Shown: piece by piece, positions 1,091 to 22,983 of the stretch
Layout of the letters: the number at the start of each line of letters is the position of its first letter
Numbering within the stretch: the first letter of the stretch is position 1
From: a virus
IMG/VR virus record: IMGVR_UViG_3300031999_000145
Span: 1 to 30,430 of that record
Direction: 5' to 3' (one strand)
DNA: 30,430 nt
Made by a program: the position numbers and the translations under genes
The notes under the pieces: model-generated
What the model saw: only the letters and a program-made list of their open reading frames with translations
Databases searched by the model: none
What the model was told of the DNA's origin: nothing

Positions 1091-2391
1091 ACGCCTCCGT
1101 TACCTCCGTTACCGCCGCCTCCACTGTAATACTGGTCAACACAAATCTCAAAAGTGAAAGTTCCGGCAACCGTTGGAGTTCCAGTTATTGCCCCATAACC
1201 GTCCATAGACAAACCATCGGGTAAAGTATCTCCAGGTTTCAAATTGACGGCTAAAGAATAATCCACATCAGGTTGAAGTAATGGGTTGAGAGTTAGATTA
1301 TGCGTGTATAGGCAACAGGTATTTCCGTCTGGCAATTCTTTATCATCCAAGAAACATCCGTAACCGTGAATGGTCAATACCTGTTGGCATTTTGATATGC
1401 CGTCATCCACTTCAAAGGTAATGTCGTAATCCCCCTCATCAGTGGTCGGTGTTCCAAATAGTTCCCCGGCATCGTTCATAAACAATCCATCGGGTAGTGT
1501 GCCGGACGTGATCGTGAAAGTGTACGAACCAGAACCACCCGCAGCCGTGAGTTGCGCGGAATATGCCACGCCTTCAACCAGATCAGGCAAAGTCGCATTG
1601 GTTATCGCCATAACATTCAGCGTGCGTGTAACGGTGGTGGAATGCCCCATTGCATCCGTGACTTTCATCTGAAACACATACGAACCGTAAATGAGTGGCA
1701 TCCCCTGAATGTAGAAAGTGCCTCCACCTGGCGTTGATACTCCGACAAAACCGATGGGGAACCCACCGACAATTTCCCAAGTGTAAGGACTCACTCCACC
1801 CGAAACTGTCACGGCCCCGTTGAAAAACGTGTTGAGGCAACCGTAGTTTGGAGATAACGCGGATATGACAGGATACACTCCACCGCCGCCACCGCCGCCA
1901 TCACACACCCTGTATGTCTGCGCCATGTAACAGGCGTAATTGTAAGCCATCTCATCGGCGAGAATCTGATTTAAGGCTACGAACGTACCGGCTGGTGTAG
2001 TGAAAGTGTACCCTTCACCTTCGGGACAGGGGGCCGTGCAAGATTTCTCAACGTTGTAAAACAATTCCAATTCTGGAAATGGGGGGCCGGTGGGCGGTTC
2101 ATCGGGCGGTGGTGTTGATGTGCATATTTCTGCGCCTCTCTGAGCGCAGAGAATGGCGTCCTGTAAGGAAACAAATGAAATACATTGAGTGAAACAGTTG
2201 TTCGCCCAAAAAACATTTGTATTTGGGTTCTGTGGATTCAGGGGATCACGCCCCAGCGGATTGAGGTTTGTCCATTTCCCCCAAGAGCGGGCGCGGAAGG
2301 AGATTCCATCTACGCTTTCCGAACTCAAGTTCATATAGGGAGAATCCGTCTCCCCATTGCACTCGTATTTTACGGGGCATTCCCTTAACAT
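1087..2391 (-). CDS. Phage surface protein with three Ig-like (He_PIG-type) domains
   Basis: The 434-aa protein is modular. Residues 1-95 are Cys-rich and unassigned. Residues about 111-163 (FYN start, CPEG, FTTPAGTFVALNQ, ADEMA) resemble DUF5977. A run of seven glycines at 165-171 acts as a linker. Three Ig-like domains follow at about 176-260, 262-342 and 365-421; the last two carry the He_PIG signature LPDGL with G-x-[IL]-x-G-T-P-T. The protein ends in a Gly/Asn-rich tail. Ig-like domains of this kind occur on tail and capsid-surface proteins and usually bind carbohydrate or host surface. A longer in-frame start exists at 2460, but the ATG at 2391 has a well-placed GGAGG six bases upstream and lies next to the upstream stop, so it is preferred. 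Adhesion is inferred. Confidence 0.85.
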   Translation of the reverse strand: MLRECPVKYECNGETDSPYMNLSSESVDGISFRARSWGKWTNLNPLGRDPLNPQNPNTNVFWANNCFTQCISFVSLQDAILCAQRGAEICTSTPPPDEPPTGPPFPELELFYNVEKSCTAPCPEGEGYTFTTPAGTFVALNQILADEMAYNYACYMAQTYRVCDGGGGGGGVYPVISALSPNYGCLNTFFNGAVTVSGGVSPYTWEIVGGFPIGFVGVSTPGGGTFYIQGMPLIYGSYVFQMKVTDAMGHSTTVTRTLNVMAITNATLPDLVEGVAYSAQLTAAGGSGSYTFTITSGTLPDGLFMNDAGELFGTPTTDEGDYDITFEVDDGISKCQQVLTIHGYGCFLDDKELPDGNTCCLYTHNLTLNPLLQPDVDYSLAVNLKPGDTLPDGLSMDGYGAITGTPTVAGTFTFEICVDQYYSGGGGNGGNGGV

Positions 2392-4172
2392 GACATGCCT
2401 CCAAATAGTGATCTGTCGAATTGTTGGGCGTAAAGCAATATGCCGCGAATCCTGCACCAACCTTTGATGACAACGCGGGTCTGGAACTGAAACCCTATGT
2501 CACTTGGACGCTTCATCCCCTGAGCGCATCCAACCGGAGGTTTTCCAAACGTGATGGGAAACTTGTAACCTTCCCGGAAAGGTTGTATGGGATAGCCGCA
2601 TGGGGTGTTCACATTTTCCTCGCATGATCTGGCCACGCAGAATTCTGTGGCCCCCCAAAATATCCAGCAAGGATTTGCGTCTTGGCGGTAGTAAACATCA
2701 ACATTCACTGTGCCGAAAACCTTGTCCAACCAAAGTTCCATTGCCTGCAATCGTTTGGTTTCAAATTCCTTTCCGAAGGTAAAAGAAGGGAACTCCACTT
2801 GCCATGTCACCCTATTATCCCCATTTTCAGTCCGTGAATAAGTCGTTAAATCCCACAAATTGAATGTCCCGTCCACCTGCGAAATCGCCATAGCAAACGC
2901 ACGTTGCAACCCCCCGAAGTCCCCGGTGAATAACTGGAGAACATCCAAACCTTCCCAATGCCCGTACCAAATCGGGTAGGACGTTCCCTGAACCGTATCT
3001 TTCAGCGATGACACTGGATCAAAGTCGAGGGGGACAATTGCCTGATGAATCACCCCCTGTTCCACCCTTCGCGGAAGAACCGTTTGCAGCATTCGATTGT
3101 CAAACTCTATGCCCGACGAAAATCGCATCAACGAACGGTCATTGAATCCGAGTATGCGCCCCACGTTTGCGGAGATGGATTTGTTTCCGAACTGATTGAA
3201 GGCCCGGGTGGCCGTCTTGAAAGAACGAATGGCAGGTTCGAGTGATTGAAAGTATTGATCTCCATTCACACCAACGATAGACGTGTCGTTTACCGCTCCG
3301 TTATTTATCTGGACGACGCTCTGTTCGGGTTGATTATTGGAGGTTGCCCCAATCCAATCGGCGCGGGTGATCGGCACTTTGAGGGCATAGATTGATTTTC
3401 GGGTGTAAACCAAGAGTCGGCCTTGTCCAAGTGCGGCATCCAAATTTGCTTCGGCACCCAATGCGCGGATATTTCCGGCATTGGTAGGCACCTTGAACCC
3501 GTCTCCACCGATGGCCAGTGGATTCTCAGTCACCTTCAAAATGGAATCCCGAAAAGCATACGCGAGTGTTCCATTCGGGCCACCAACAATATCACCTGCT
3601 GAATAGGTTCTACCCTGCGCGTACCACAAGCGACCCATGTAATACGCCATTGCTGTTGCGGCAGGTAATTCCCTTGTCAATCCCGGTGCCGGGTTCAAAC
3701 CATTCGATTTCCGAAGTATTGCCCCATCCCAAAACAGGGGAAGCGTCACGCCGTCACCTGCCTGAATTACAAGAAACTCCTCACCCTGACGGAAAAACGC
3801 TTGGTCGCTGCTCAACGGGGGATTGGATATACCAAACTGCGTGGAGAGATTTGTAACCGTAAGTGTGGTGGGATCGTATTTGATTATCTCCCCACCGATT
3901 GAGAACACGAGATACGGATTCGAGTTGTCCACCGGCTCATACATGTACCCGAACTGATACAACGAAGTGCCATCGTGAACCTTTCCAACAGGTTGCCATC
4001 CCGTGCGCTGCATGATGCCCCCATCGCGCATGATGCAGTTGACACCCCAAGAAATTTCGTTCCGGGAAAGGCCGTCAGTCGTAATCGCCGACTCGACGGT
4101 TGTGGGCTTCGACGCATCACAGCCTCCAGAAAAACTGAAAGAACCGTCCGTAAGTACCGTATCATGTGGCAT
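2385..4172 (-). CDS. Large tail or neck virion protein, propeller-like
   Basis: This 595-aa protein lacks signal or membrane segments and has repeated beta-strand blocks with aromatic-Gly turns (GDGVTLPLFWDG, AYYMGRLWYAQG, NQYF-type segments, QVDGTFNLWDLTTYS). That pattern resembles propeller proteins such as podoviral tail nozzle or stabilisation proteins. I assign it only as a structural candidate because I cannot detect homology by search. It starts MPHDTVLTDG, the same ten residues that start the endonuclease gene immediately upstream. GGAGG lies seven bases before the ATG and belongs to the 3' end of that endonuclease gene, whose stop is at 4162-4164. The 3' end overlaps the next gene by seven bases. 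Minus-strand transcription probably starts in the divergent region at 4948-4996. Confidence 0.8.
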   Translation of the reverse strand: MPHDTVLTDGSFSFSGGCDASKPTTVESAITTDGLSRNEISWGVNCIMRDGGIMQRTGWQPVGKVHDGTSLYQFGYMYEPVDNSNPYLVFSIGGEIIKYDPTTLTVTNLSTQFGISNPPLSSDQAFFRQGEEFLVIQAGDGVTLPLFWDGAILRKSNGLNPAPGLTRELPAATAMAYYMGRLWYAQGRTYSAGDIVGGPNGTLAYAFRDSILKVTENPLAIGGDGFKVPTNAGNIRALGAEANLDAALGQGRLLVYTRKSIYALKVPITRADWIGATSNNQPEQSVVQINNGAVNDTSIVGVNGDQYFQSLEPAIRSFKTATRAFNQFGNKSISANVGRILGFNDRSLMRFSSGIEFDNRMLQTVLPRRVEQGVIHQAIVPLDFDPVSSLKDTVQGTSYPIWYGHWEGLDVLQLFTGDFGGLQRAFAMAISQVDGTFNLWDLTTYSRTENGDNRVTWQVEFPSFTFGKEFETKRLQAMELWLDKVFGTVNVDVYYRQDANPCWIFWGATEFCVARSCEENVNTPCGYPIQPFREGYKFPITFGKPPVGCAQGMKRPSDIGFQFQTRVVIKGWCRIRGILLYAQQFDRSLFGGMSC

Positions 4173-4947
4173 TTACATACCTCCACACGAATCCAAAACA
4201 TTCGTTTCGTTTTCCTTTGCACACCGAATGGATGTTAGACCGCCTTCCAAATATCTGTTCCGCTTTTGTAATGGAATCAAATTGGGCTACAAACTTTCCG
4301 TCTAACGAAAGTTGAACGACCGCCTTATTGCAGGGTGCCGGACATGAATGCCTCCACCTTTCCATCTTCTCTCTTTGGCCGGGAGTCCACTTTGATCCCA
4401 ATTTCATTTTCCGCATCGCCTCTATCTGCTCGGGAGTCCTTTTCTTTCGCTTAATCCCTGTCTGCCCCGCCGACATATTCGCTCTCGCCTCCGCCGTATG
4501 TTTATATCCGCGCAGAGAATTGGCAACACGCTCAACATACTCCCTGCGTCTTTTTATCCCTTTGCAAGATTCCGCCGTCGGCGAAATGTTATATCCATTT
4601 TGGGGAAGGTAAGGCTTGAAGAAATTAAGCCAAAACTGTTCTCGTTCAAGCAGTATTCTTTTATCTGCGTTCGGTATTTCTTCGATTACCTCAACGTAAA
4701 AAGCATCAGGGTCATTCTTGAAATCATTTTGAAGATCGAGGCTATGATAATTTCCTCTCGCAAAACTATGCCTATGTTGCGTGCATCGGTGACTTAGATT
4801 AGCGGTGCCTCCAACGTACATCTTTCCGTTGTTCTGGTTTACGATGGAATAGATGCCGGATTTATGGGTATGGTACGGCCTTGGAAGGAAGTTATGAAAC
4901 TCACGCTTCCCTTTAATCCCATCAGTTAATACCGTGTCATGCGGCAT
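4162..4947 (-). CDS. GIY-YIG homing endonuclease with NUMOD-type DNA-binding repeats
   Basis: The 261-aa protein carries a GIY-YIG nuclease domain: GIY at 31-33, YVG at 44-46, the expected catalytic Arg at R54 and a Glu in LLEREQFW (E101/E103). Helix-turn repeats of NUMOD3 type follow around 146-195 (HTAEARANMS, RTPEQIEAMRKMKLG, WTPGQREKM). A NUMOD1/IENR1-like end lies at about 207-257 (AVVQLSLDGKFVAQFDS to FVWRY). Such proteins cut DNA at a long target and spread their own gene. Residues 1-10, MPHDTVLTDG, are identical to the start of the downstream virion gene but encoded by mostly different synonymous codons. No Shine-Dalgarno precedes this ATG. The stop overlaps the virion-gene start. The domain call is firm; mobility is inferred. 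Confidence 0.93.
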   Translation of the reverse strand: MPHDTVLTDGIKGKREFHNFLPRPYHTHKSGIYSIVNQNNGKMYVGGTANLSHRCTQHRHSFARGNYHSLDLQNDFKNDPDAFYVEVIEEIPNADKRILLEREQFWLNFFKPYLPQNGYNISPTAESCKGIKRRREYVERVANSLRGYKHTAEARANMSAGQTGIKRKKRTPEQIEAMRKMKLGSKWTPGQREKMERWRHSCPAPCNKAVVQLSLDGKFVAQFDSITKAEQIFGRRSNIHSVCKGKRNECFGFVWRYVNAT

Positions 4948-4996
4948 AAATCACATTTGCGTTGAATTCTACTGACTGTCAAGATAAGTTTCTGAA
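4948..4996. promoter_or_regulatory. Divergent promoter region between minus-strand virion operon and terminase
   Basis: Only 49 bp separate the endonuclease start from the terminase start, so promoters for both directions must lie here or inside genes. On the minus strand TTGACA occupies 4982-4977 in the context TCTTGACAGTC, also present before the capsid gene. No clear TATAAT follows at 17 bp. On the plus strand TTGAAT and GATAAG are a weak pair. Promoter activity is inferred. Confidence 0.4.
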
Positions 4997-6808
4997 ATGG
5001 CCGCAGGCTCAAAGTTGTATGGATTCCAATGGAGCGCAGAACAAACACCACTCGACATCGAGATGCACTGCATCCGCAAGGACGGGGCAAGGGACGGAAA
5101 GTGGGGCGTAAAAGAGCAGATTCCGTTGCATTATGAGAACATGCGGAGGATTTTGTGGCCGCGACTGGACGGGGATCACAATGGCCAGAGATGGCATACG
5201 CTGTGCAAGAATGAGATTCTAAAAAACCGCGTAACAGTTCTCATGGGGCCGGGGTCTTCAAATAAAACTCATTCTGCTGCGTGGGTTTACTTATGCGAGT
5301 ATTTCTGCTTTTCCGACGAGACATGTGTACTCGTATCTTCCACGGACATGCGCGGGCTTCGATTGCGCGTGTGGGGAGAAATTGCAATGCTATGGAAGGA
5401 GGCGACTGAAAAGTTCGATCATCTTGCGGGGCATCTTTTGGACAGCAGGGTGGCCATTACCACTGACAATTTAGAGGACGGAGAATTCGGAACACGAACA
5501 GTACGCGACATGCGTAAGGGAATCATCGGAATTCCAACAACACAGGGTTCTACGTATGTCGGTTTGTCGAAATGGTGTGGTGTAAAACAGAAACGCGTCA
5601 GACTGATCGCCGACGAGAGCCAAATGATGGGTGCCAGTTTCCTTTCAGCCTTCGCCAATCTCAACAAGAACGAAGACTTTCGTGCTATCATCATCGGCAA
5701 CCCCGTTGACCCACTTGATCCACTTGGTAAAGCAGCAGAACCCTTGGATGGTTGGTCTGGTCATCTTGAGCCAAAGAAAACCGAAGTCTGGAAGACGCGG
5801 TTTATGAACGGCACCTGCGTTAATCTGATAGGCACAGATTCGCCGAACTTCGATTTCCCCGCCGACAAACCCACACGGTTCAAATATCTCATCAGCCGAG
5901 AGAAGATTGCGGACACCCTCTCATTCTTCCCAAAGGATTCGATTGAGTACTACTCGCAATGTGTTGGCAGCATGAAGATAGGGACACTGGATTACCGTGT
6001 CATCACCCGCGATCTATGCCGACAGTACAATGCCTTGGATGACGTGATATGGGATGGTTCAGAGAAAACGGTGAAGGTGGCTGCCTTGGATGCCGCTTAT
6101 GGTGGAGATCGTTGCGTGTGTGGCCACATAGAGTTTGGAAAGGATGTGAAGGGCGGAATCATCTTAAGCATCAGTCCTCCGCAAATAGTGCCCATATTGG
6201 TCAGCAGTTCCAATACGCCAGAGGATCAGATCGCGGAATGGGTGCGCGACTATTGCACTCAGCATGAGATACCACCCGAAAACTTTTTCCACGACTCTAC
6301 AGGCCGGGGAAGTCTCGGAACCGCACTTGCCCGAGCATGGTCTGCACAATGCAATCCCGTCGAGTTCGGGGGAAAGGCCACGGACAGGCCGGTATCACTC
6401 GACCTCTACATGTTCGACAATGATACACAACAACGCAGGTTGGTCATGTGTTCGGAACACTACGACAGGTTTGTATCCGAGTTGTGGTATCAGGTGAGGT
6501 ACGCCATTGAATCCCGGCAGGTGCGTAATATGCCCGAGGATGTGATGGATGAAATGTGCATGAGAATGTGGCGGAAGAAGAACAACAAGATTTCGATTGA
6601 GACGAAAGAGGAAATGAAGAAACGGACGAGCCGAAGTCCCGACCTTGGGGATTTTTTAGCGATAGCCTGCGAAGGTGCCCGTCGCCTTGGTTTTCAGATC
6701 AGCAAGATTCCAAATAGGCCGGGCGAGAAAGATTCAGAGGATTACCTAAAAAGGGAATTGCAATTGCATCAACGGTTTGTTAAACGACACGAACTCAGTT
6801 ATACGTAA
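4997..6808 (+). CDS. terL: Terminase large subunit
   Basis: The 603-aa protein has both halves of a DNA-packaging motor. The ATPase half has a Walker A-like GPGSSNKT at 84-91, Walker B with catalytic Glu in RLIADESQ (E207), and a motif III/C-type IIIGNP at 231-236. The RNase H-like nuclease half shows three acidic positions: D365 in ALDAAYGGD, D433 in FFHDSTGRG and D552 in SPDLGDF. The enzyme binds the portal, translocates DNA into the prohead and cuts the concatemer. The Walker A is unusual because Asn89 replaces the glycine before the lysine (GxxxxNKT). No small terminase is evident nearby. A zinc-binding hypothetical follows after five bases. Confidence 0.95.
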   Translation: MAAGSKLYGFQWSAEQTPLDIEMHCIRKDGARDGKWGVKEQIPLHYENMRRILWPRLDGDHNGQRWHTLCKNEILKNRVTVLMGPGSSNKTHSAAWVYLCEYFCFSDETCVLVSSTDMRGLRLRVWGEIAMLWKEATEKFDHLAGHLLDSRVAITTDNLEDGEFGTRTVRDMRKGIIGIPTTQGSTYVGLSKWCGVKQKRVRLIADESQMMGASFLSAFANLNKNEDFRAIIIGNPVDPLDPLGKAAEPLDGWSGHLEPKKTEVWKTRFMNGTCVNLIGTDSPNFDFPADKPTRFKYLISREKIADTLSFFPKDSIEYYSQCVGSMKIGTLDYRVITRDLCRQYNALDDVIWDGSEKTVKVAALDAAYGGDRCVCGHIEFGKDVKGGIILSISPPQIVPILVSSSNTPEDQIAEWVRDYCTQHEIPPENFFHDSTGRGSLGTALARAWSAQCNPVEFGGKATDRPVSLDLYMFDNDTQQRRLVMCSEHYDRFVSELWYQVRYAIESRQVRNMPEDVMDEMCMRMWRKKNNKISIETKEEMKKRTSRSPDLGDFLAIACEGARRLGFQISKIPNRPGEKDSEDYLKRELQLHQRFVKRHELSYT

Positions 6809-6813
6809 AGCCT

Positions 6814-7491
6814 ATGACAGAATTTAACCGCCATCAATTTCCCCCGTCTGGTTGGATGTACTACCAACCACAAACTAGGTGGTCTGCGCCAACACCACTC
6901 TCAAGCAGTTTCGATTCTACCGTTGAGTTGATTATCAGGCATCGCAAGGCCAACCCCGCTGTTGTCGCAAAAAACAACCTGTCGCTGAACTTCGACACCG
7001 TAGCCAATGAGCTTGAGGCTTACACGAGAAAGCGGTTGGGCCTCCCCGCATCACTTGCATCTCCAATCCCAAAAACGACGCCTCTACGCCGACTCGCCGA
7101 CGGCGTGGGGGCTGCTGTGGAAGGGGTTAAAAGGCTCGCGGCAGGCGCGGCATTGCTGTTTGAATGGGAGGAATCTAAAACGGAGCCTGTCGCAAACGAA
7201 CTGGCGGCAAAGCGGGCAGAGATATGCGTCAGATGCCCGAAGAATGACCCCGAACACATGTCCAAGTACTTCACCACGGCGGTTTCAGAGATGTTGCGAA
7301 AAAAACTGCAACGATTGCATGAGATGAAGCTGACAACCGTTCACGATCAGCAATTGGGGATATGTGCGGCATGTTTTTGTCCGTTGAAGTTGAAAGTCTT
7401 TTGTCCGTTCGATTTGATTGAGAAGCACATACGGCAAGAAGACAGGCCGCAACTCGATCCGCAATGCTGGATTCTAAAACGGGATGCCTAA
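6814..7491 (+). CDS. Hypothetical zinc-binding phage protein
   Basis: The 225-aa product has an unassigned N-terminal 90 residues, an Ala-rich helix around 97-115 and a C-terminal half with likely metal ligands: EICVRCPKND, then ICAACFCPLKLKVFCP, then CW near the end. Paired CxxC and CxC spacing suggests a zinc knuckle. I have seen the arrangement CVxCPxN followed by CxACxCPLKLKV in uncharacterised phage proteins near glycosyltransferases, but I know no function. The ATG has no Shine-Dalgarno and sits in the context AAGCCTATG, like several other starts here. It sits between the terminase and the sugar island and overlaps the first glycosyltransferase by eight bases. Confidence 0.8.
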   Translation: MTEFNRHQFPPSGWMYYQPQTRWSAPTPLSSSFDSTVELIIRHRKANPAVVAKNNLSLNFDTVANELEAYTRKRLGLPASLASPIPKTTPLRRLADGVGAAVEGVKRLAAGAALLFEWEESKTEPVANELAAKRAEICVRCPKNDPEHMSKYFTTAVSEMLRKKLQRLHEMKLTTVHDQQLGICAACFCPLKLKVFCPFDLIEKHIRQEDRPQLDPQCWILKRDA

Positions 7492-8191
7492 AATCCTTCT
7501 GGCCTACACCTGCGTTGCGAATGGAAATCTCACCGATGAATTTGCAGCCCGGTTTGTCGGAACATATTTGCAATTCCCTCCCGGAGTAGAGCACGAAACT
7601 GTCATCGTCTGCAACGGCGGGCCATTGAAGTTAGGAACACAACTGTTGTTCTCGCCCATCCCCTGCACATTCTTTCCCCGGAGCAACAACGGATGGGATA
7701 TAGGTGGCTACATCGAAGCGGCGAAGAAGTTTGAATGCGACATGCTGGTGTGTCTTGGGGAATCGGTTTATTTCCACCGCGAAGGTTGGCTGAAGAAACT
7801 CGCAGATGCGTGGCAGAGATACGGGCCGGGGATGTACGGGCCTTTTGCAAGTTACAATGTGAGGGCGCATTTACAGACAACGGCATTCTGCTGCGCTCCG
7901 AAGCATTTACAGGATTACTCTCAGCCAGTCAGAACAAAAAGGGATCGCTACCAATTCGAGCATGGAGAGTATGCACTATGGCGAAGGCTGGCATTAAATA
8001 GAACCCCAACAAATCTGGTAACATGGGATGGTGTTTGGGAACCTCGCCAATGGAGGATGCCAGCCAATATACTCTTTCGTGGAGATCAAAGTAATTGCCT
8101 GTTCTTCGCAAATCATACTCAAGACTTTGAAAAGGCTCCAGCCTATGTGAAAGCGGGATGGTCGAGGGCGGCGGACATTCCATTCAAATGA
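7484..8191 (+). CDS. Glycosyltransferase-like protein, paralogue A
   Basis: This 235-aa protein resembles GT-A glycosyltransferases of the rhamnan synthesis F style. It starts with a beta strand (KILLAYTCV), has VIVCNGG at 40-46, and carries the signature RSNNGWDIGGY at 66-76, where an Asn-Gly-x-Asp cluster is usual. Later blocks are ESVYFHREGWL, RYQFEHGEYALW, VTWDGVWEPRQW and FRGDQSN. All of these recur in the next gene. No membrane segment is visible, so it should act in the cytoplasm, transferring a sugar from a nucleotide donor to an unknown acceptor. It overlaps its upstream and downstream neighbours by eight and four bases, so the island is one transcription unit. Confidence 0.78.
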   Translation: MPKILLAYTCVANGNLTDEFAARFVGTYLQFPPGVEHETVIVCNGGPLKLGTQLLFSPIPCTFFPRSNNGWDIGGYIEAAKKFECDMLVCLGESVYFHREGWLKKLADAWQRYGPGMYGPFASYNVRAHLQTTAFCCAPKHLQDYSQPVRTKRDRYQFEHGEYALWRRLALNRTPTNLVTWDGVWEPRQWRMPANILFRGDQSNCLFFANHTQDFEKAPAYVKAGWSRAADIPFK

Positions 8192-8868
8192 ACATCGAAG
8201 TCGTATATGTCTGCCCGGTTGAATCCGGGGATCAGTTCGTAACCTACGGATGGAGATTTCTGCAATCCTATCTGGAGAACAAACCCGGAATGGATCACGG
8301 CACTACCATTGTATGCAACGGCGCATCTCCATCCAATCCAGTCTATGCGATGTTCAAGCTCATGCCAAATTGCAAATTCTTCGAGCGTGATAATTCCGGT
8401 TATGACATAGGGGCGTTCCAGCATATAGCGCGTGAAGTTCCAGCCGATATGATGGTGTTCTTTGGGGCATCCTCGTATGTTCGGGGAGCAGGTTGGTTGC
8501 TTCGGATGATTCGAGCATTCGAGTCAAATCCAGAGTTTCAGTACGGTTCAATGGGTAATCGCGGGAACATACCCGTAAATGTGTGGCCACATATTCGCAC
8601 AACGGGTTTCTGGATGAATCCCGACCTTATGAAGGCATATCCAACAATCGTAACTCGACCAGAGCAGCGATACGAATTTGAACACGGAAAGAACTGCCTC
8701 ACCGAACGGTTGAAGCGCCGTGGAATAAAAAGCTACGTTGTTACGTGGCACGGTCAGTACGATTGGGCGAATTGGGATGATGACCCTAATGGATACCATC
8801 GAGGAAATCAAAGTTCCTTATTATCTGGTGATCGGAATACAGACCCGCCATACCATCCACGGCAATGA
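8188..8868 (+). CDS. Glycosyltransferase-like protein, paralogue B
   Basis: The 226-aa protein is a diverged duplicate of its upstream neighbour. Shared blocks in the same order are TIVCNGAS, FFERDNSGYDIGAF at 65-78, GASSYVRGAGWL, HIRTTGFWMNPDLM, RYEFEHGKNCL, VTWHGQYDWANW and YHRGNQSSLL. The ATG at 8188 overlaps the previous stop (ATGA), which fixes this start over a longer in-frame one at 8158. The two copies probably act in succession on one glycan or with different sugars; this is inference. No signal peptide or membrane segment is present. Confidence 0.78.
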   Translation: MNIEVVYVCPVESGDQFVTYGWRFLQSYLENKPGMDHGTTIVCNGASPSNPVYAMFKLMPNCKFFERDNSGYDIGAFQHIAREVPADMMVFFGASSYVRGAGWLLRMIRAFESNPEFQYGSMGNRGNIPVNVWPHIRTTGFWMNPDLMKAYPTIVTRPEQRYEFEHGKNCLTERLKRRGIKSYVVTWHGQYDWANWDDDPNGYHRGNQSSLLSGDRNTDPPYHPRQ

Positions 8869-9569
8869 ATCCGATTATCATATTCTACCACTGTCTTTTC
8901 TATCTTGGTGATCCCCCGCAATTACTTCCCCCCGCATTGGATATTGTATCGCGCCAAATGAATTTACTAGGAACTTCTGGATTATTGGAAGCTGCAAGCG
9001 AGTTTCATGTTGGAGTTAATGGGGGAACAGAAAGTGAAATCCCGGCGTGCGTCACCATTCCAACAAAGGCGCAGATCATATATCACGGATTACAGAGCAG
9101 AAACGAGAACCTTACAATTGTGATGGTGGAGGAATGGCTAAAGAATCATCCAGATGAGGCATACATTCTCTATTTTCATGCGAAGGGATCAACGCATCCC
9201 ATTTCTGATCCAGTGAGAAATAGATGGCGGGGATGTATGGAGAGAAACCTGATTTCAAAATGGAAAAACTGTGTATCTGACTTGGCGACAGGAAGTGACG
9301 CGGCGGGGTGTCACTGGATGAGTTGGGGGAATTACCCACAAATGCCAAAGGGACAGTCCATCTTTGGTGGAAACTTTTTTTGGGCAAAAGCGTCGTTCCT
9401 AAGAACGCTTCCTTCGATCTTCAGCACTGATCGGGTTAAGCAATCTGGAATACTAGCACTTGAAAGCCGGTATGAAAGCGAAGTATGGATAGGGAATGGC
9501 CCAAGATTGCCAAGGGTTAGAGATTATCATAATGGCTGGAACGTGACCGCATCAACCTGCATCCCATAG
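8865..9569 (+). CDS. Putative glycosyltransferase (FHAKGS type)
   Basis: This 234-aa protein is not an obvious paralogue of the two before it. It carries AYILYFHAKGSTH at 99-111, WRGCMERNLISKW, GCHWMSWGNYP, and SIFGGNFFWAKASFLRTLP, followed by the acidic segment RYESEVWIGN. The combination of FHxKG, a Gly-Asn-Phe-[FW]-Trp segment and a late Glu-x-Trp-Ile is one I associate with small bacterial polysaccharide glycosyltransferases. Donor and acceptor are unknown. The ATG overlaps the preceding stop by four bases, and the next gene starts seven bases after its end. The family call is moderate. Confidence 0.65.
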   Translation: MNPIIIFYHCLFYLGDPPQLLPPALDIVSRQMNLLGTSGLLEAASEFHVGVNGGTESEIPACVTIPTKAQIIYHGLQSRNENLTIVMVEEWLKNHPDEAYILYFHAKGSTHPISDPVRNRWRGCMERNLISKWKNCVSDLATGSDAAGCHWMSWGNYPQMPKGQSIFGGNFFWAKASFLRTLPSIFSTDRVKQSGILALESRYESEVWIGNGPRLPRVRDYHNGWNVTASTCIP

Positions 9570-9576
9570 CTGAAAT

Positions 9577-10263
9577 ATGAAAATCTGTGTATTCTCTCCG
9601 TTTTCAAATCTGAAGGAATTGGCCGAGATTACCGTCCCAAACAAGGCGAATTACTGTGTCCGACATGGATACGATTTTCTGATTAAGCCGCTGGGGGGAA
9701 CCGGATGTAACGAGATCGAAATGTATGGATTCAGAAGACGAATGCCATTGGTGATAGAGCTATTGAAGGCGAACATCTATGACTGGATTTGGGTTGTTGG
9801 CGTGGACGTTCTGGTAACAAACCTTGCGATCAAATTGGAGTCTATTGTTGATGATAATTACGGAATGGTCGTCGGAACGGAGCCGTTGGGAGTGGGAATG
9901 GACTCGTACCTTATCAGAAAGCAGAAAGAGGGACTCGAATTCCTCGAACGTGTGGTAAGCTTCATGGAAAAACCTATCGGGGCATTTCACGAGCAGTCCA
10001 CGATTGACACGCTTTGCAGGCAGGAACCAGAATTTTCAAAAGTGGTTAAACGTGTTCCTCAACGAACGCTTAACTCTTTTCAATACGCCAAAACCAATCT
10101 AAATGTTTACGGTTACATATCTGCCGGATTTGTTACCGGAACCGACTGCCTTGGAAATTCTGGAGAATGGCAACCGGGGGATTTTGTGCTTCATGTTCCG
10201 GGCATCAGGGACGATCAAAAACTAGCTATCCTGAAGGAAACACTTCCGCTGATTCAAGAATGA
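9577..10263 (+). CDS. GT34-like (GMA12/MNN10 family) glycosyltransferase
   Basis: The 228-aa protein resembles the galactosyl/mannosyl transferase family GT34. The segment IYDWIWVVGVDVLVTN at 67-82 corresponds to the family WIWWLDxDAxIxN block, although the first Asp of the usual DxD is replaced by Gly (G75-V76-D77). A downstream EQSTIDTLC and the C-terminal GDFVLHVPG match the family's late EQ and GDF-x-x-H signatures. Loss of the first DxD acid may alter metal use or mark a divergent family. It is cytoplasmic by sequence and part of the sugar island. The stop overlaps the next ATG. Confidence 0.72.
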   Translation: MKICVFSPFSNLKELAEITVPNKANYCVRHGYDFLIKPLGGTGCNEIEMYGFRRRMPLVIELLKANIYDWIWVVGVDVLVTNLAIKLESIVDDNYGMVVGTEPLGVGMDSYLIRKQKEGLEFLERVVSFMEKPIGAFHEQSTIDTLCRQEPEFSKVVKRVPQRTLNSFQYAKTNLNVYGYISAGFVTGTDCLGNSGEWQPGDFVLHVPGIRDDQKLAILKETLPLIQE

Positions 10264-11063
10264 TAATTCTGCTAGGATCGCATGGTTATATTGGAAGCGC
10301 CTTCGCCCAGGAAATGACAGCGCGGGGGATTGACTGGATGCCTGCATCATATCTGAATCTCGAAAAGGTTTCAAAGTGGATAAGCGGGCAAGACATGGTT
10401 ATCAACTGTTCGGCATTCATCCCGAAAGAATCCGTATCACTATGCGACACCCAACCAGAAGCCACCTTGAATGGAAACCTCCTGCTTCCAATTAGATTGA
10501 GCCGTATGTGCGAACAGTCAGGGGCTACACTCGCGCATCTCTCCACCGGCTACCTGTGGAACGATGGCAAAGAACACGGAGAAGATGACCCTCCGCAAAG
10601 AATGTTCCGGGGGTACTGTGGATTTTACATAGGCACGAAGGTTCTGGCTGATCGTGAAGTGCAACGGTGCCCAAAGCACTACATCTGGAGGCTCAGTTTG
10701 GCCTTTGACGAATGCGACAACGACCGAAATTATCTGAGCAAGCTCGCGGGATTCTATGAGATATTTGATCGGGATAATTGCGTTTCCCACCGATTCGATT
10801 TTGTGAGAAGCTGCCTTCAGTTATGGAAAACTCAGGCTCCGTTTGGCGCCTATAATGTGATGAATGAAGGAAGCATCAAGGCAACGCATATCGTTGATCT
10901 GTTGAAGCAAGCTGGAATACGACGCACCGATCCGCGCATTATTTCCGGTGGCCACGGGGATTCAAAGGCAAGCATTTCAAAACTGTTGAGCGCCGGAATA
11001 TCCATGCGTTCTTCCGAGGATGCAGTACTGCACAGCATCAAGAACTGGATTCCCAGAAAGTAA
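10260..11063 (+). CDS. NAD(P)-dependent sugar epimerase/reductase (extended SDR, RmlD-like)
   Basis: This 267-aa protein has the Rossmann nucleotide-binding motif GSHGYIG at 6-12, the acidic/Asn-containing VINCSAF, the catalytic Ser/Thr in LSTGYLWN (95-96) and the catalytic pair in YIGTK (Y123, K127). The layout is that of extended SDR enzymes such as dTDP-4-dehydrorhamnose reductase, which reduce or epimerise nucleotide-bound sugars. A substrate is not determinable. The chosen ATG at 10260 overlaps the previous stop (ATGA); a longer in-frame start at 10167 lies inside the previous gene and is rejected. With the C-methyltransferase downstream it could produce a modified deoxysugar for the glycosyltransferases. 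Confidence 0.85.
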   Translation: MIILLGSHGYIGSAFAQEMTARGIDWMPASYLNLEKVSKWISGQDMVINCSAFIPKESVSLCDTQPEATLNGNLLLPIRLSRMCEQSGATLAHLSTGYLWNDGKEHGEDDPPQRMFRGYCGFYIGTKVLADREVQRCPKHYIWRLSLAFDECDNDRNYLSKLAGFYEIFDRDNCVSHRFDFVRSCLQLWKTQAPFGAYNVMNEGSIKATHIVDLLKQAGIRRTDPRIISGGHGDSKASISKLLSAGISMRSSEDAVLHSIKNWIPRK

Positions 11064-11068
11064 AACCT

Positions 11069-12280
11069 ATGTTCACGAATACTCAGAAATGCCGTGCGTG
11101 CGGAAGCACTGAATTGATTCCTGTATTCAACCTCGGCCTTCAGCCGCTCGCCAACTCATTTCGGAAGACCGGAGAGGAACACGATGGCTATGCCCCGCTC
11201 TCAGTACTCTATTGTCCCCGATGCACCCTCGGACAATTATCGGTCGTAGTGAAGCCCGAAATCCTATACCGGGATTACAAGTACGTCACCAGCCCGAGCG
11301 AGACAATGCGAAGGCACTTTATGTCCATCTTTGAGGACATACGCGCCGAGTGCCCGAGGCTGGATTGCGTGGTTGAAATCGGGAGCAATGACGGGTTACT
11401 TCTCCAGTTCTTTCAAAAGATAACGGGATGCAGTGCTTTGGGAATAGAACCGGCATCCAATCTTGCCACGATTGCTTCAGGAAAAGGTATCCCCACACTT
11501 AACACATTCTTCTCAAAGGAGAATGTCGCGTCATTAGCCGGGTGCAAACGCGAGATTGATCTGATACTTGCCCGTCACGTTTTCTGTCATGTTGACGATT
11601 GGAAAGACTTCGTGGCCGCATTGGAATCCCTCTGTTTCAAGGATACTTTGGTCTGTATTGAAGCGCCTTACGCAGTGGACACATTGGCAAGAGTGGAGTT
11701 TGACCAAGTGTACCATGAGCATCTTTCATTTCTAACAATTAAGTCGGTGAAGTCACTTTTGCGGGACACCAAACTCAGACTTCATAAAATCGTCCGATAC
11801 CCGATCCACGGCGGGTCAATAATGGTTATGCTCAGGCATGTGGACAGTAGCATTCCTATGGATCAAAGTGTAATTGAATTTCTGTCAAAAGAGAACGTCA
11901 CCCTTGATTCATGGAATGCGTTTTCAGAAACAGCCAATCGAAACATTCTATCGTTACGGGAACTCATAAAGGATTTAGCGGATCAGGGCAAATCCATCGC
12001 CGGATTCGGAGCATCAGCCAAGAGCACGGTATGGATCAATGCCGCAGGATTATCCCCGTGGTTGAAGTTCGTAACCGATACCACTGAACAGAAGATAGGC
12101 CGATACGTTCCCGGAACTGGTATTCCGGTTGTTCATCAATCACACCTACTGTCCGAACAACCGGATTACGCGGTAGTCTTCGCGTGGAATTTTCTGAGCG
12201 AAATACTCTCAAGCCAACAGGAATACAGGAATCGCGGGGGAAAGTTCATCATCCCAGTTCCCATCATCGAGATTATCTGA
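11069..12280 (+). CDS. Sugar C-methyltransferase, TylC3/TcaB9-like
   Basis: The 403-aa protein has the three-part architecture of nucleotide-sugar C-methyltransferases. An N-terminal zinc site uses C8/C11 and C49/C52. A SAM-binding Rossmann domain has VEIGSNDG at 102-109. A C-terminal domain has GFGASAKSTVW, typical of the Methyltransf_14 region. The active-site signature YHEH is at 215-218, matching the catalytic Tyr/His/Glu/His segment known in TcaB9-type enzymes. These enzymes add a methyl group to C3 of a dTDP-4-keto sugar. It lacks a Shine-Dalgarno and begins in the context AAAGTAAAACCTATG, repeated exactly before the RecT gene. It closes the sugar island. Confidence 0.9.
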   Translation: MFTNTQKCRACGSTELIPVFNLGLQPLANSFRKTGEEHDGYAPLSVLYCPRCTLGQLSVVVKPEILYRDYKYVTSPSETMRRHFMSIFEDIRAECPRLDCVVEIGSNDGLLLQFFQKITGCSALGIEPASNLATIASGKGIPTLNTFFSKENVASLAGCKREIDLILARHVFCHVDDWKDFVAALESLCFKDTLVCIEAPYAVDTLARVEFDQVYHEHLSFLTIKSVKSLLRDTKLRLHKIVRYPIHGGSIMVMLRHVDSSIPMDQSVIEFLSKENVTLDSWNAFSETANRNILSLRELIKDLADQGKSIAGFGASAKSTVWINAAGLSPWLKFVTDTTEQKIGRYVPGTGIPVVHQSHLLSEQPDYAVVFAWNFLSEILSSQQEYRNRGGKFIIPVPIIEII

Positions 12281-20700: not shown

Positions 20701-20955
20701 ATGGCAACCTGTTCCGTAGCCGAATTGATTGATTCGGCGTGCGCCAATGGATTCTTCCAACTGGCTCACGCCGATCAGAAACAGGCGGATGGAGTCAAAC
20801 TCCAACTGCTCAAAGAGATTGCCGGTGACGAATCCACAATCGGCCAACTGATTCAGGCATCGTGCGACAATGGATTCATGTGTCTGGCGCAAAGTGATGC
20901 CCGGCACGCTAGGGGAGTTACCCTGCAATTGCTCTGCGACATAGCCGAGGGTTAA
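20701..20955 (+). CDS. Two-copy module protein
   Basis: The 84-aa product consists of two copies of a module: SACANGFFQLA to GVKLQLLKEI, then SCDNGFMCLA to GVTLQLLCDI. It has no added head domain, so it may be the base or a linker of the array. The start MATCS is shared with two later genes. It is six bases after the preceding stop. Confidence 0.75.
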   Translation: MATCSVAELIDSACANGFFQLAHADQKQADGVKLQLLKEIAGDESTIGQLIQASCDNGFMCLAQSDARHARGVTLQLLCDIAEG

Positions 20956-20959
20956 TCCA

Positions 20960-21220
20960 ATGTTCACATGCGATCTGCCCACACTCCAGTCTGAGGCTTG
21001 TTCCAACAAGTTTACTTGCTTGGACAGCAAGGTATCCCAGGCGGTGCTGTTGCAGTTGTTGTGCGAGATAAAGACCGCAGCATCTACGGCGATGCCTTCA
21101 GGTGCGATTATTCGGTGGAATGGAACGTCACTGAACATTCCTGATGGTTGGCTGAATTGCGATGGAACCAACGGCACCCCAAGTCTGAGTAACGGGGTGA
21201 TTTACATGATGAAGGCGTAA
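20960..21220 (+). CDS. Tail-module protein with short collar-like head
   Basis: The 86-aa product has the N-terminal module (TCDLPTLQSEAC, then NKFTCLDSK, then VLLQLLCEI, residues about 1-37). A short head follows, with MPSGAIIRWNG, IPDGWLNCDGTNGTP and a short end. The PSGAI...IPxGWxxCDGTxGTP pattern is the core of the phage tail collar domain, but the head is abbreviated. The final codons AAG GCG TAA and following bases repeat part of boundary element L seen at 12776. Receptor binding is inferred. Confidence 0.8.
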   Translation: MFTCDLPTLQSEACSNKFTCLDSKVSQAVLLQLLCEIKTAASTAMPSGAIIRWNGTSLNIPDGWLNCDGTNGTPSLSNGVIYMMKA

Positions 21221-21224
21221 GGCG

Positions 21225-21956
21225 ATGGCAACCTGCTCCATAAAAGACCTGCAAGCTTCCGCCTGCGAGAATAAATTTACTTGTCTCGATCCGAAGGTGT
21301 CCCAAGCGGTTCTCCTTCAACTGCTCTGCAACATACAACAAGCTGGCGGAACGGGTGGGGCAACAAATTTCACAGACCTTGGTGATGTTCCCGGTTCCTA
21401 CGCAGGATCGGGTGGATTCACTGTCAGAGTCAATGCCGCTGGCAACGCACTTGAATTTGTAAATGTAGCGGCAACGGCGCAGTCGGTGTTCTCGGGAAAT
21501 TACGCTGGCGGAACGCCGACCGATGTTCCGACAGTTGGAACCGCCACCGGATTCGACACCAGCAACTCTACAACGTGGTTGTGGTATGGGGCCGCATGGC
21601 ACAGACAACAATACATCAGTGCGAATGTTGCGATAGTTTCGGCAACCCATATTCATTTTACACATGGTCTGGGTGCAAAACCCAAGGATGTGCGTGCGGT
21701 ACTTGTATGCGTGAACGATGACACCAACATGGAATGCGTTGTTGGGGATGAGGTAAACGTTGAGTCGGTTTTTGATACAAACCTATTTGGCCCGGCTGTT
21801 ACCGTAAGTGCCGATGTGACAGCCGTTACACTCTCGTATTCACAAGACCTATTTGGCAGAGAAGGTAATTTTATGTTCAACTCTTTAATTATGGGCGGGC
21901 CTTCAAATCCTTTAGATTGGGCGAACTTCAAACTGAAGGTGTACGCAAGTTTATGA
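21225..21956 (+). CDS. Tail-module protein with long beta-rich head
   Basis: The 243-aa protein has the shared 37-residue N-terminal module (MATCSIKDLQASAC, NKFTCLDPK, VLLQLLCNI). A Gly/Ala linker (GGTGGATNF) comes next. Then a beta-rich head of about 190 residues contains TDLGDVPGSYAGSGGFTVRV, a segment common in phage tail-fibre proteins where it precedes the receptor-binding tip, and later HIHFTHGLGAKPKDVRAVL. The end is a regular beta sandwich. It is probably a tail-fibre or receptor-binding subunit. The stop overlaps the next ATG (ATGA). Confidence 0.8.
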   Translation: MATCSIKDLQASACENKFTCLDPKVSQAVLLQLLCNIQQAGGTGGATNFTDLGDVPGSYAGSGGFTVRVNAAGNALEFVNVAATAQSVFSGNYAGGTPTDVPTVGTATGFDTSNSTTWLWYGAAWHRQQYISANVAIVSATHIHFTHGLGAKPKDVRAVLVCVNDDTNMECVVGDEVNVESVFDTNLFGPAVTVSADVTAVTLSYSQDLFGREGNFMFNSLIMGGPSNPLDWANFKLKVYASL

Positions 21957-22498
21957 ACACCTGCAATTTAACCACACTTCAGGCTGCTGCGTGCGCCAAC
22001 AAATTCACCTGCCTCGATCCCAAGACCCAGGTTGCGGTATTGTTGCAACTGCTCTGCAACATCAAGAACGAGGGTGTTGCTTCTGTAAACTGGTGTTCGA
22101 TAATGCACTGGCCCTTCAATGTTATCATCAATGGTGGTGCGGGTGTCTTTGCGCCAATGACCTCATTTGACGAAGGTTACGCCAATGGATTCACATACGA
22201 TCTGGCAGCCGGAACGATGACCAACAGTGTTGCCGGTTATTACAAATTTGGGATACATCTCTCTGGAATTTCCTTGGATTCTTCCGCGATGTCGTATGGT
22301 GATCTTTTCGTGAATGGAGTCAGAACACGCGGGATAAGTTTTGCCTCGCAATTTGAGGCAGTGCCGAGGACGAAGGACTTAGTGGCATTGGGAGTTACTT
22401 ACCTACAAGCCAATTCAACCATAGATTTTCGGATACAAAGTTCTGGCGCGTCAGGTATTAGTGTCGCTCGCGCCCAATACACCGTAGGAGCACCATGA
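21953..22498 (+). CDS. Tail-module protein with C1q/TNF-like head, copy 1
   Basis: The 181-aa protein carries the shared N-terminal module (MNTCNLTTLQAAAC, NKFTCLDPKTQVAVLL) and a head of about 140 residues. The head has VAGYYKFGIHLSG and ends SSGASGISVARAQYTVGAP; the same endings occur in the product of 23041. A jelly-roll of the C1q/TNF type, usual as a trimeric tip of fibres, would fit the G-Y-Y-x-F strand. The ATG at 21953 overlaps the previous stop, so the longer frame from 21917 is rejected. The fold is inferred. Confidence 0.78.
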   Translation: MNTCNLTTLQAAACANKFTCLDPKTQVAVLLQLLCNIKNEGVASVNWCSIMHWPFNVIINGGAGVFAPMTSFDEGYANGFTYDLAAGTMTNSVAGYYKFGIHLSGISLDSSAMSYGDLFVNGVRTRGISFASQFEAVPRTKDLVALGVTYLQANSTIDFRIQSSGASGISVARAQYTVGAP

Positions 22499-22983
22499 GT
22501 GCGTGCGATCTGCCCACACTTCAGGCAACCGCTCGCGCCAACAAATTCACCTGCCTCGATCCCAAGACGCAGGTTGCGGTGTTGCTTCAGTTGTTGTGTG
22601 AGTTGAAGGAGAAAGGGGGAACGGGGAAATGTTGCCTTCCAGATGCCGACCTTGTGATTGATAACATACCTTTAGACCCCGGATTTGGAATCACGTCCGC
22701 TCACGGATTTGGCGCGATGCCGAAACTGGTCATCGGAAAGATAAAAGTGGTTACAGATTTCCCCGGGTTGTCATTTACAGCCGGACAAGAGTTCGATCTC
22801 CCGTGTTTGTTTGATCTGGGGGATCACCAGCATCGTTGTTCGGTCGGATCGGACACCGTAAATGTTTACTTTGGAATTTCAAACGGCTTGGGCAATTGGG
22901 GTCTTCCGACCATGATTTCCCCAACAGCGGGCACTTCGACTGTTACAGGAACCATAGTTGGAAAAGTTTACGCATGGAAGTAA
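22495..22983 (+). CDS. Tail-module protein with Cys-containing head
   Basis: The 162-aa protein starts with the module, in which one usual cysteine is Arg (TARANKFTCLDPK). The head differs from the neighbours: GKCCLPDADLVIDNIPLDPG, then HGFGAMPKLVIGKIKVV and a Gly-rich beta end. HGFGAMPK resembles the HGLGAKPK segment in the product of 21225, so these two heads may share a distant core. ATGA overlap with the preceding gene shows coupling. A tail-tip role is inferred. Confidence 0.78.
   Translation: MSACDLPTLQATARANKFTCLDPKTQVAVLLQLLCELKEKGGTGKCCLPDADLVIDNIPLDPGFGITSAHGFGAMPKLVIGKIKVVTDFPGLSFTAGQEFDLPCLFDLGDHQHRCSVGSDTVNVYFGISNGLGNWGLPTMISPTAGTSTVTGTIVGKVYAWK

Follow-up and report, generated by a model that had tools for sequence, protein, structure and literature searches.

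The viral DNA analysed here, a stretch of 30,430 nucleotides spanning positions 1 to 30,430 of the IMG/VR record IMGVR_UViG_3300031999_000145 (hereafter the window), contains a putative GIY-YIG homing endonuclease gene directly upstream of a gene for a P22 gp10-like tail nozzle protein, and both genes begin with the same ten residues, MPHDTVLTDG, encoded by different synonymous codons. We consider it probable that an endonuclease element entered the essential nozzle gene at its 5' end, took over its native start and left a recoded second start behind (Table 1). The copy at the start of the endonuclease gene (copy 1, 4947-4918) reads ATG CCG CAT GAC ACG GTA TTA ACT GAT GGG and the copy at the start of the nozzle gene (copy 2, 4172-4143) reads ATG CCA CAT GAT ACG GTA CTT ACG GAC GGT. 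As the earlier note on this DNA had described, the two copies differ at seven bases, all synonymous (7/7), and the two proteins are identical over the ten residues and unrelated from residue 11. The seven differences are located in six codons. The probability that seven random substitutions in codons 2-10 keep the peptide intact is about 7e-6, and thus both copies look like starts with separate histories in which the peptide mattered. The stop codon of the endonuclease gene (TGA at 4164-4162) lies within the start of the nozzle gene, and the same type of overlap is found at four related loci (L003, L012, L014 and L204). The putative mobile unit consists of the inferred insert plus copy 2 (4173-4917 and 4143-4172).

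Table 1 Features of the window locus and of other loci with duplicated gene ends flanking an endonuclease gene.
Locus	Feature	Position	Strand	Remark
Window	Putative GIY-YIG homing endonuclease gene	4162..4947	-	261 aa; residues 1-10 equal the nozzle start; domain at residues 29-123
Window	First ten nozzle codons, copy 1, in frame with the rest of the endonuclease gene	4918..4947	-	Probable native start, by position
Window	Putative inserted DNA, endonuclease codon 11 to second start	4173..4917	-	Missing from L009, L094-L108 and other empty-site relatives
Window	Copy 2, present nozzle start; synonymous recoding with 7 base changes in ten codons	4143..4172	-	
Window	Target gene, P22 gp10 / T7 gp12-like tail nozzle protein, 595 aa	2385..4172	-	Named from Foldseek matches
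Window	Overlap of endonuclease and nozzle genes	4162..4172	-	Endonuclease stop formed by the first nozzle codons, out of frame (ATGCCACATGA)
Window	GGAGG before the recoded start	4180..4184	-	Formed by the conserved C-terminal W-[KR]-Y codons of the endonuclease
Window	49-nt spacer between divergent terminase-like gene and endonuclease gene	4948..4996	.	Inferred native nozzle leader
Window	Divergent neighbour, putative large terminase, positional landmark	4997..6808	+	Motif reading; no family profile matched
L036 (also L037)	Endolysin: 46-codon dead start fragment, GIY-YIG gene, full endolysin with foreign start	5782-7303		
L035	Mirror image at a 3' end: head morphogenesis gene with recoded C terminus RPLKLSDLRAKYTN before the GIY-YIG gene, other C terminus RSLKLSDLKAKYTQ after it	5857-7028		
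L044	Downstream gene poly-ADP-ribose-polymerase-like; a 5' fragment of it lies beyond the endonuclease	5877-8035		
L087	Downstream gene thymidylate synthase; a 5' fragment of it lies beyond the endonuclease	2492-4362		
L038	Downstream gene tail protein; a 5' fragment of it lies beyond the endonuclease	1895-3680		

The GIY-YIG domain of the endonuclease was recognised by Pfam PF01541 (37.9 bits, cutoff 22.6) and by PHROG 314 (E=4e-26), and the catalytic domain of I-TevI (1LN0/1MK0) matched it with E=7e-13, with GIY/YVG, the conserved Glu and Asn aligned. Since this domain begins at residue 29, the ten shared residues lie outside of it. No match to Rfam intron families was found between positions 3900 and 5100 at E<=1, and the reading frame of the nozzle gene is complete without splicing. 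Judged from its sequence, the gene encodes a putative free-standing GIY-YIG homing endonuclease. Free-standing homing endonucleases are usually described between genes. The earlier note had also contrasted the GGAGG before the nozzle ATG with the upstream region of the endonuclease gene; the motif is present and has no counterpart before the endonuclease ATG. As most genes in the window have no Shine-Dalgarno motif, we set this weak contrast aside.

The product of the downstream gene had been labelled a virion protein, a label for which family profiles gave no support: there was no significant match for the protein itself, and the best match within the nozzle group was PHROG 3287 'virion structural protein' (E=0.0035) in the relative L012. 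The label is backed by the fold instead. An AlphaFold model of moderate quality (18 sequences, mean pLDDT 56) matched P22 gp10 (8eap, E=2.4e-8), the Pa223 tail (9nwi, 6.3e-11) and the PhiM1 nozzle (8vbx, 3.0e-9) in Foldseek and also the T7 tail, with TM values of 0.3-0.4 to solved nozzle proteins. Since the model matches podovirus tail nozzle folds, we refer to the target as a P22 gp10-like tail nozzle protein; it is predicted to have the same fold as P22 gp10 and T7 gp12 but shares only about 11% sequence identity and no significant family profile match with them. With P0001 as the sole query, no relatives were found among viral contigs or annotated phages, and searches of genome contigs yielded nothing useful; the relatives of the locus were reached through relatives of the endonuclease.

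The closest endonuclease relatives in viral contigs (L003/L004 at 53%, L012/L093 at 47%, L013 at 42%, L014 at 33% and also L204) are each encoded directly 5' of a homologous nozzle gene, and at least five further phage lineages thus carry a related endonuclease at exactly the site occupied in the window. Among the relatives retrieved, no closer endonuclease was found at any other site. The site is occupied in the window, L003, L012, L013, L014 and L204 and empty in L009-L011, L091 and L094-L108, and homologues of the terminase-like neighbour lie beside it in L009, L012, L013, L204 and the empty-site loci. In the window, L012, L013 and L204, the endonuclease ATG and the divergent terminase-like ATG are 42-49 nt apart; in most empty sites, the corresponding distance of the nozzle ATG is 44-57 nt, a range that leaves out the L098-L100 group with no clean measurement. 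Because the two spacings agree, the endonuclease occupies the native nozzle start position in the measurable cases.

The earlier note had taken the peptide for the old start of the nozzle gene and had proposed to check whether the first codons of relatives with an empty site are closer to 4947-4918 and run directly into codon 11. In the closest such relative, L009, the endonuclease is absent and the nozzle protein, 60% identical to that of the window, starts with MPHDVYLTDGSFDWSGG: its first codons (ATG CCT CAC GAT GTC TAT CTT ACA GAT GGC) encode MPHDVYLTDG and continue straight into SFDWSGG, and the ATG lies 57 nt from the divergent terminase-like gene. More than 12 further endonuclease-free relatives have nozzle starts of the type M...xDG(S/Q)xxx(S/A)GG. 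Since the endonuclease-free L009 begins with MPHDVYLTDGSFDWSGG, MPHDTVLTDG is the ancestral nozzle start by descent. That the endonuclease had taken over this old start as its own N terminus, as likewise proposed beforehand, is supported by its position, by L009 and by the copied starts in L014 and L204 described below, but L009, with a nozzle protein of 60% identity, is too divergent to tell at the DNA level which of the window copies is native. Since no empty-site allele closely related to the window phage turned up, the assignment of copy 1 as native in the window rests on position and on the analogy with L204 and L036.

In L204, the endonuclease gene begins with ATGGCAAATGGC (MANG, four codons), which is identical at 12/12 bases to the native starts of the empty loci L099 and L102, whereas the nozzle start ATGGCTAACGGA matches at 9/12 bases, with all three codons after the ATG synonymously changed. 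Read directly from these sequences, the endonuclease of L204 carries the native start and the nozzle gene the recoded one. The copy in L014 extends over 18 codons (endonuclease start MANSPFTPQAIYDRLDSF versus nozzle start MPNSPFTPQAIYDRLDDF) with ten synonymous and two non-synonymous codon changes, and the nozzle gene of L091, a relative of L014 with an empty site, starts with homologous sequence. In L003, L012 and L013, the endonuclease is located at the same site but shares no more than one or two of its first residues with the nozzle protein; a copied start is therefore not obligatory.

Recoded starts are not confined to occupied sites. Between L102 (3983-4072) and L098 or L103, all of them empty, the upstream DNA is 94% identical, and the first ~24 codons are synonymously recoded in L102. 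Recoding at the nozzle start thus needs no resident endonuclease, and starts of the L102 type are possibly either resistant alleles, relics of lost elements or the result of ordinary mosaicism. Since the empty pair L102/L103 shows the same pattern, we downgraded as evidence the comparison of L003 with the empty L010, in which the first 24 codons are 0.59 identical versus 0.89 elsewhere (Fisher p=1.6e-4). The start-segment exchange in the empty L102 pair would fit a rival explanation, in which the window locus is a scar of homeologous recombination: two phages would have recombined at the gene start, with the endonuclease as a passenger that did not drive the event, the copies would be a foreign and a native start, and the recoding would not serve immunity. 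Such a scar would account equally well for the synonymous-only divergence of the two copies, and the endonuclease-free locus L111 has a foreign-type endolysin start, too (see below). We nevertheless consider this explanation rather unlikely, since six lineages carry related endonucleases at one and the same codon-level site and since flank duplications are found at other target genes, both of which indicate endonuclease-directed events.

Such duplications were searched for as peptides repeated on both sides of the endonuclease in 64 endonuclease loci, each representing one family, with 400 mismatched pairings between different loci as control. Flank duplications were detected in 7/64 loci with scores of 54-128 compared to 0/400 controls, of which the maximum score was 47. 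The seven positives are the window (score 56), L014, L036, L044, L087, L038 and L035. In the window (4947-4918), L014 and L204, an abandoned gene end, in the window probably the native one, lies beyond the endonuclease, and abandoned ends are present as fragments in L036, L044, L087 and L038. No flank duplication was found at eight loci of annotated phages whose endonucleases are distantly related to that of the window, nor at T4 segA, segF, mobB and I-TevII.

The origin of the two ends could be followed best at the endolysin gene of L036. Among the empty-site endolysins, 76/78 are closer to the abandoned upstream fragment than to the current start, e.g. the endolysin start of L171 with 91% to the fragment versus 61% to the current start, even though the remainder of the gene is at about the same distance. 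At the nucleotide level, five empty relatives gave values of 0.74-0.80 to the fragment versus 0.60-0.65 to the current start. The exceptions to this polarity are L111, which is 94% identical to the current start, and L113. In the endonuclease-free endolysin of L111 (2501-3115), the 94% identity to the foreign start of L036 covers the first 49 codons and the remainder is ~74% identical at the protein level; L111 and L113 may be in or near the donor lineage of the L036 start.

Based on these data, the favoured course of events would be as follows. A GIY-YIG element would have cut the native nozzle start, and repair of the break from a donor phage with both the endonuclease and a homologous gene start, the latter differing at synonymous sites, would have installed both. 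The original nozzle leader, ATG and ten codons now begin the endonuclease gene, as indicated by position and relatives, and the second start at 4172, from which the frame is intact, would restore the whole nozzle protein. The two copies would accordingly represent two working nozzle starts that diverged under selection at the protein level, the upstream copy being native and the downstream copy derived from another phage lineage, as the relatives indicate for L204 and for the endolysin of L036. Since an exact copy would rebuild the target beside the endonuclease, a durable element needs a changed copy; the changed codons probably destroy the putative recognition sequence of the endonuclease, and a putative immunity through recoding is plausible.

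Two further explanations of the codon differences fit less well than such an invasion. On the one hand, the endonuclease might only have captured the expression signals of the nozzle gene. The fused start would then serve the translation of the endonuclease, and the codon differences would stem from selection at the second start, either on codon usage or on the structure of the mRNA. The endonuclease is found at the native start position in every measurable same-site case, and the third-position GC (GC3) is lower at the start regions of most empty genes as well, both in accordance with signal capture. As this explanation leaves unaccounted for the other-lineage origin of the second start in L036 and the 3'-end case L035, where start signals are irrelevant, we regard it as very unlikely. 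Third-position GC had been considered as a marker of foreign starts and was rejected because AT-rich starts are common in empty genes. On the other hand, a tandem duplication or a target-site repeat that arose with the insertion and of which one copy then drifted would explain why two copies flank the insert in the manner of insertion repeats. Drift, however, would yield neither 7/7 synonymous differences in the window nor the ratio of ten synonymous to two non-synonymous codons in L014, and the downstream start of L036 is the sequence of another lineage rather than a drifted copy, which makes this origin highly improbable.

A coincidence or a start peptide common to unrelated genes, for which a parallel could be seen in T4, where mobC and nrdG apparently each have their own family's similar start, can practically be dismissed, as the score of the window exceeds the control maximum and as MPHDTVLTDG is lacking in the same-site endonuclease relatives and nearly present in the nozzle relative L009, contrary to what the earlier note had named as a sign of a common start. 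The T4 genes themselves (L190, 42906-43538 and 42446-42916) both start with MNYDRIY, with two synonymous differences, probably by coincidence; we rejected them as a laboratory example because mobB, mobD and mobE share an MNYxxIY-type start wherever they are located.

The comparison with Allomyces atp6 drawn in the earlier note is apt, and the arrangement is more fully documented in Glomus, where endonuclease ORFs of the mitochondria bring along replacement C-termini for atp6, atp9, cox2 and nad3 (PMC3630166). In that study, which also cites Allomyces atp6, the native ends beyond the ORF agree with a close relative in 91-98% of bases, compared with 64-81% for the inserted ends (PMC3630166). A study on Phlebia offers a transposition reading of C-terminal duplications (PMC4019555). 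As in the window, the endonuclease of the Allomyces/Glomus systems is located within a needed gene and the copies differ mostly synonymously. In these systems, and probably in the window too, the native end is abandoned on its far side and a foreign homologous end restores the gene. The rule that the abandoned end is native and the current end foreign applies to L036 (76/78) and L204 (12/12 versus 9/12), while the nearest empty relative of the window is too distant for this comparison. In contrast to the window, where a phage gene is affected at its 5' end and the native start has become the N terminus of the endonuclease, the Allomyces/Glomus cases are mitochondrial and concern the 3' end; L035 is a 3'-end case in a phage contig. 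The window element works like the Allomyces/Glomus type without being a strict member of it.

Among phage systems, the T4 Seg (GIY-YIG) and Mob (HNH) endonucleases are likewise free-standing beside their target genes, with a GIY-YIG domain in Seg, but these T4 examples are intergenic (PMC2988022). None of the T4 seg/mob genes inspected has a copied target start, apart from the coincidental mobC/nrdG resemblance. T4 mobA in gene 39/60 resembles the window in that an endonuclease sits inside a needed phage gene and a device keeps this gene working; there, the split gene is read by ribosomal hopping, whereas in the window a second coding start would restore it (PMC3014915). I-TevI, the catalytic domain of which is homologous to that of the window endonuclease, resides in a self-splicing group I intron, in contrast to the window, where no intron family was detected. 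The searched passages of a T4 endonuclease review (PMC2988022) and of a phage endonuclease survey (PMC10448857), a search that covered no subscription papers, contain no phage example of a replacement-end endonuclease. Accordingly, replacement-end endonucleases of fungal mitochondria are known; what would be new here is that the same logic operates in a phage and on the 5' end of a gene, whose old start has become the endonuclease N terminus.

These results suggest a route for endonucleases into the coding sequence of essential phage genes that needs neither an intron nor an intein, and extend a mitochondrial mechanism to phages and to the 5' end, with predictions that are testable with short synthetic DNA. 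A broader reading, which we consider slightly less likely than not, is that of a recurrent class of phage homing endonucleases that capture the end of an essential gene and carry a replacement end, coding for the same protein and selected to be uncuttable, by which the victim is both restored and immunised. If this were true, recoded empty starts such as that of L102 would represent either resistant alleles or traces of an earlier invasion. For annotation, abandoned gene ends beside endonucleases should not be taken for separate genes, and virion and lysis genes can have a start segment of foreign origin.

Two other regions of the window are of note. Positions 20701-22983 contain tandem genes with a common 104-nt start (at 20960, 21225, 21953 and 22495; 63-80% identical) and different C-terminal parts. 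Positions 7484-12280 contain a cluster that reads like putative sugar or glycan modification genes, including glycosyltransferase-like, nucleotide-sugar reductase-like and methyltransferase-like genes.
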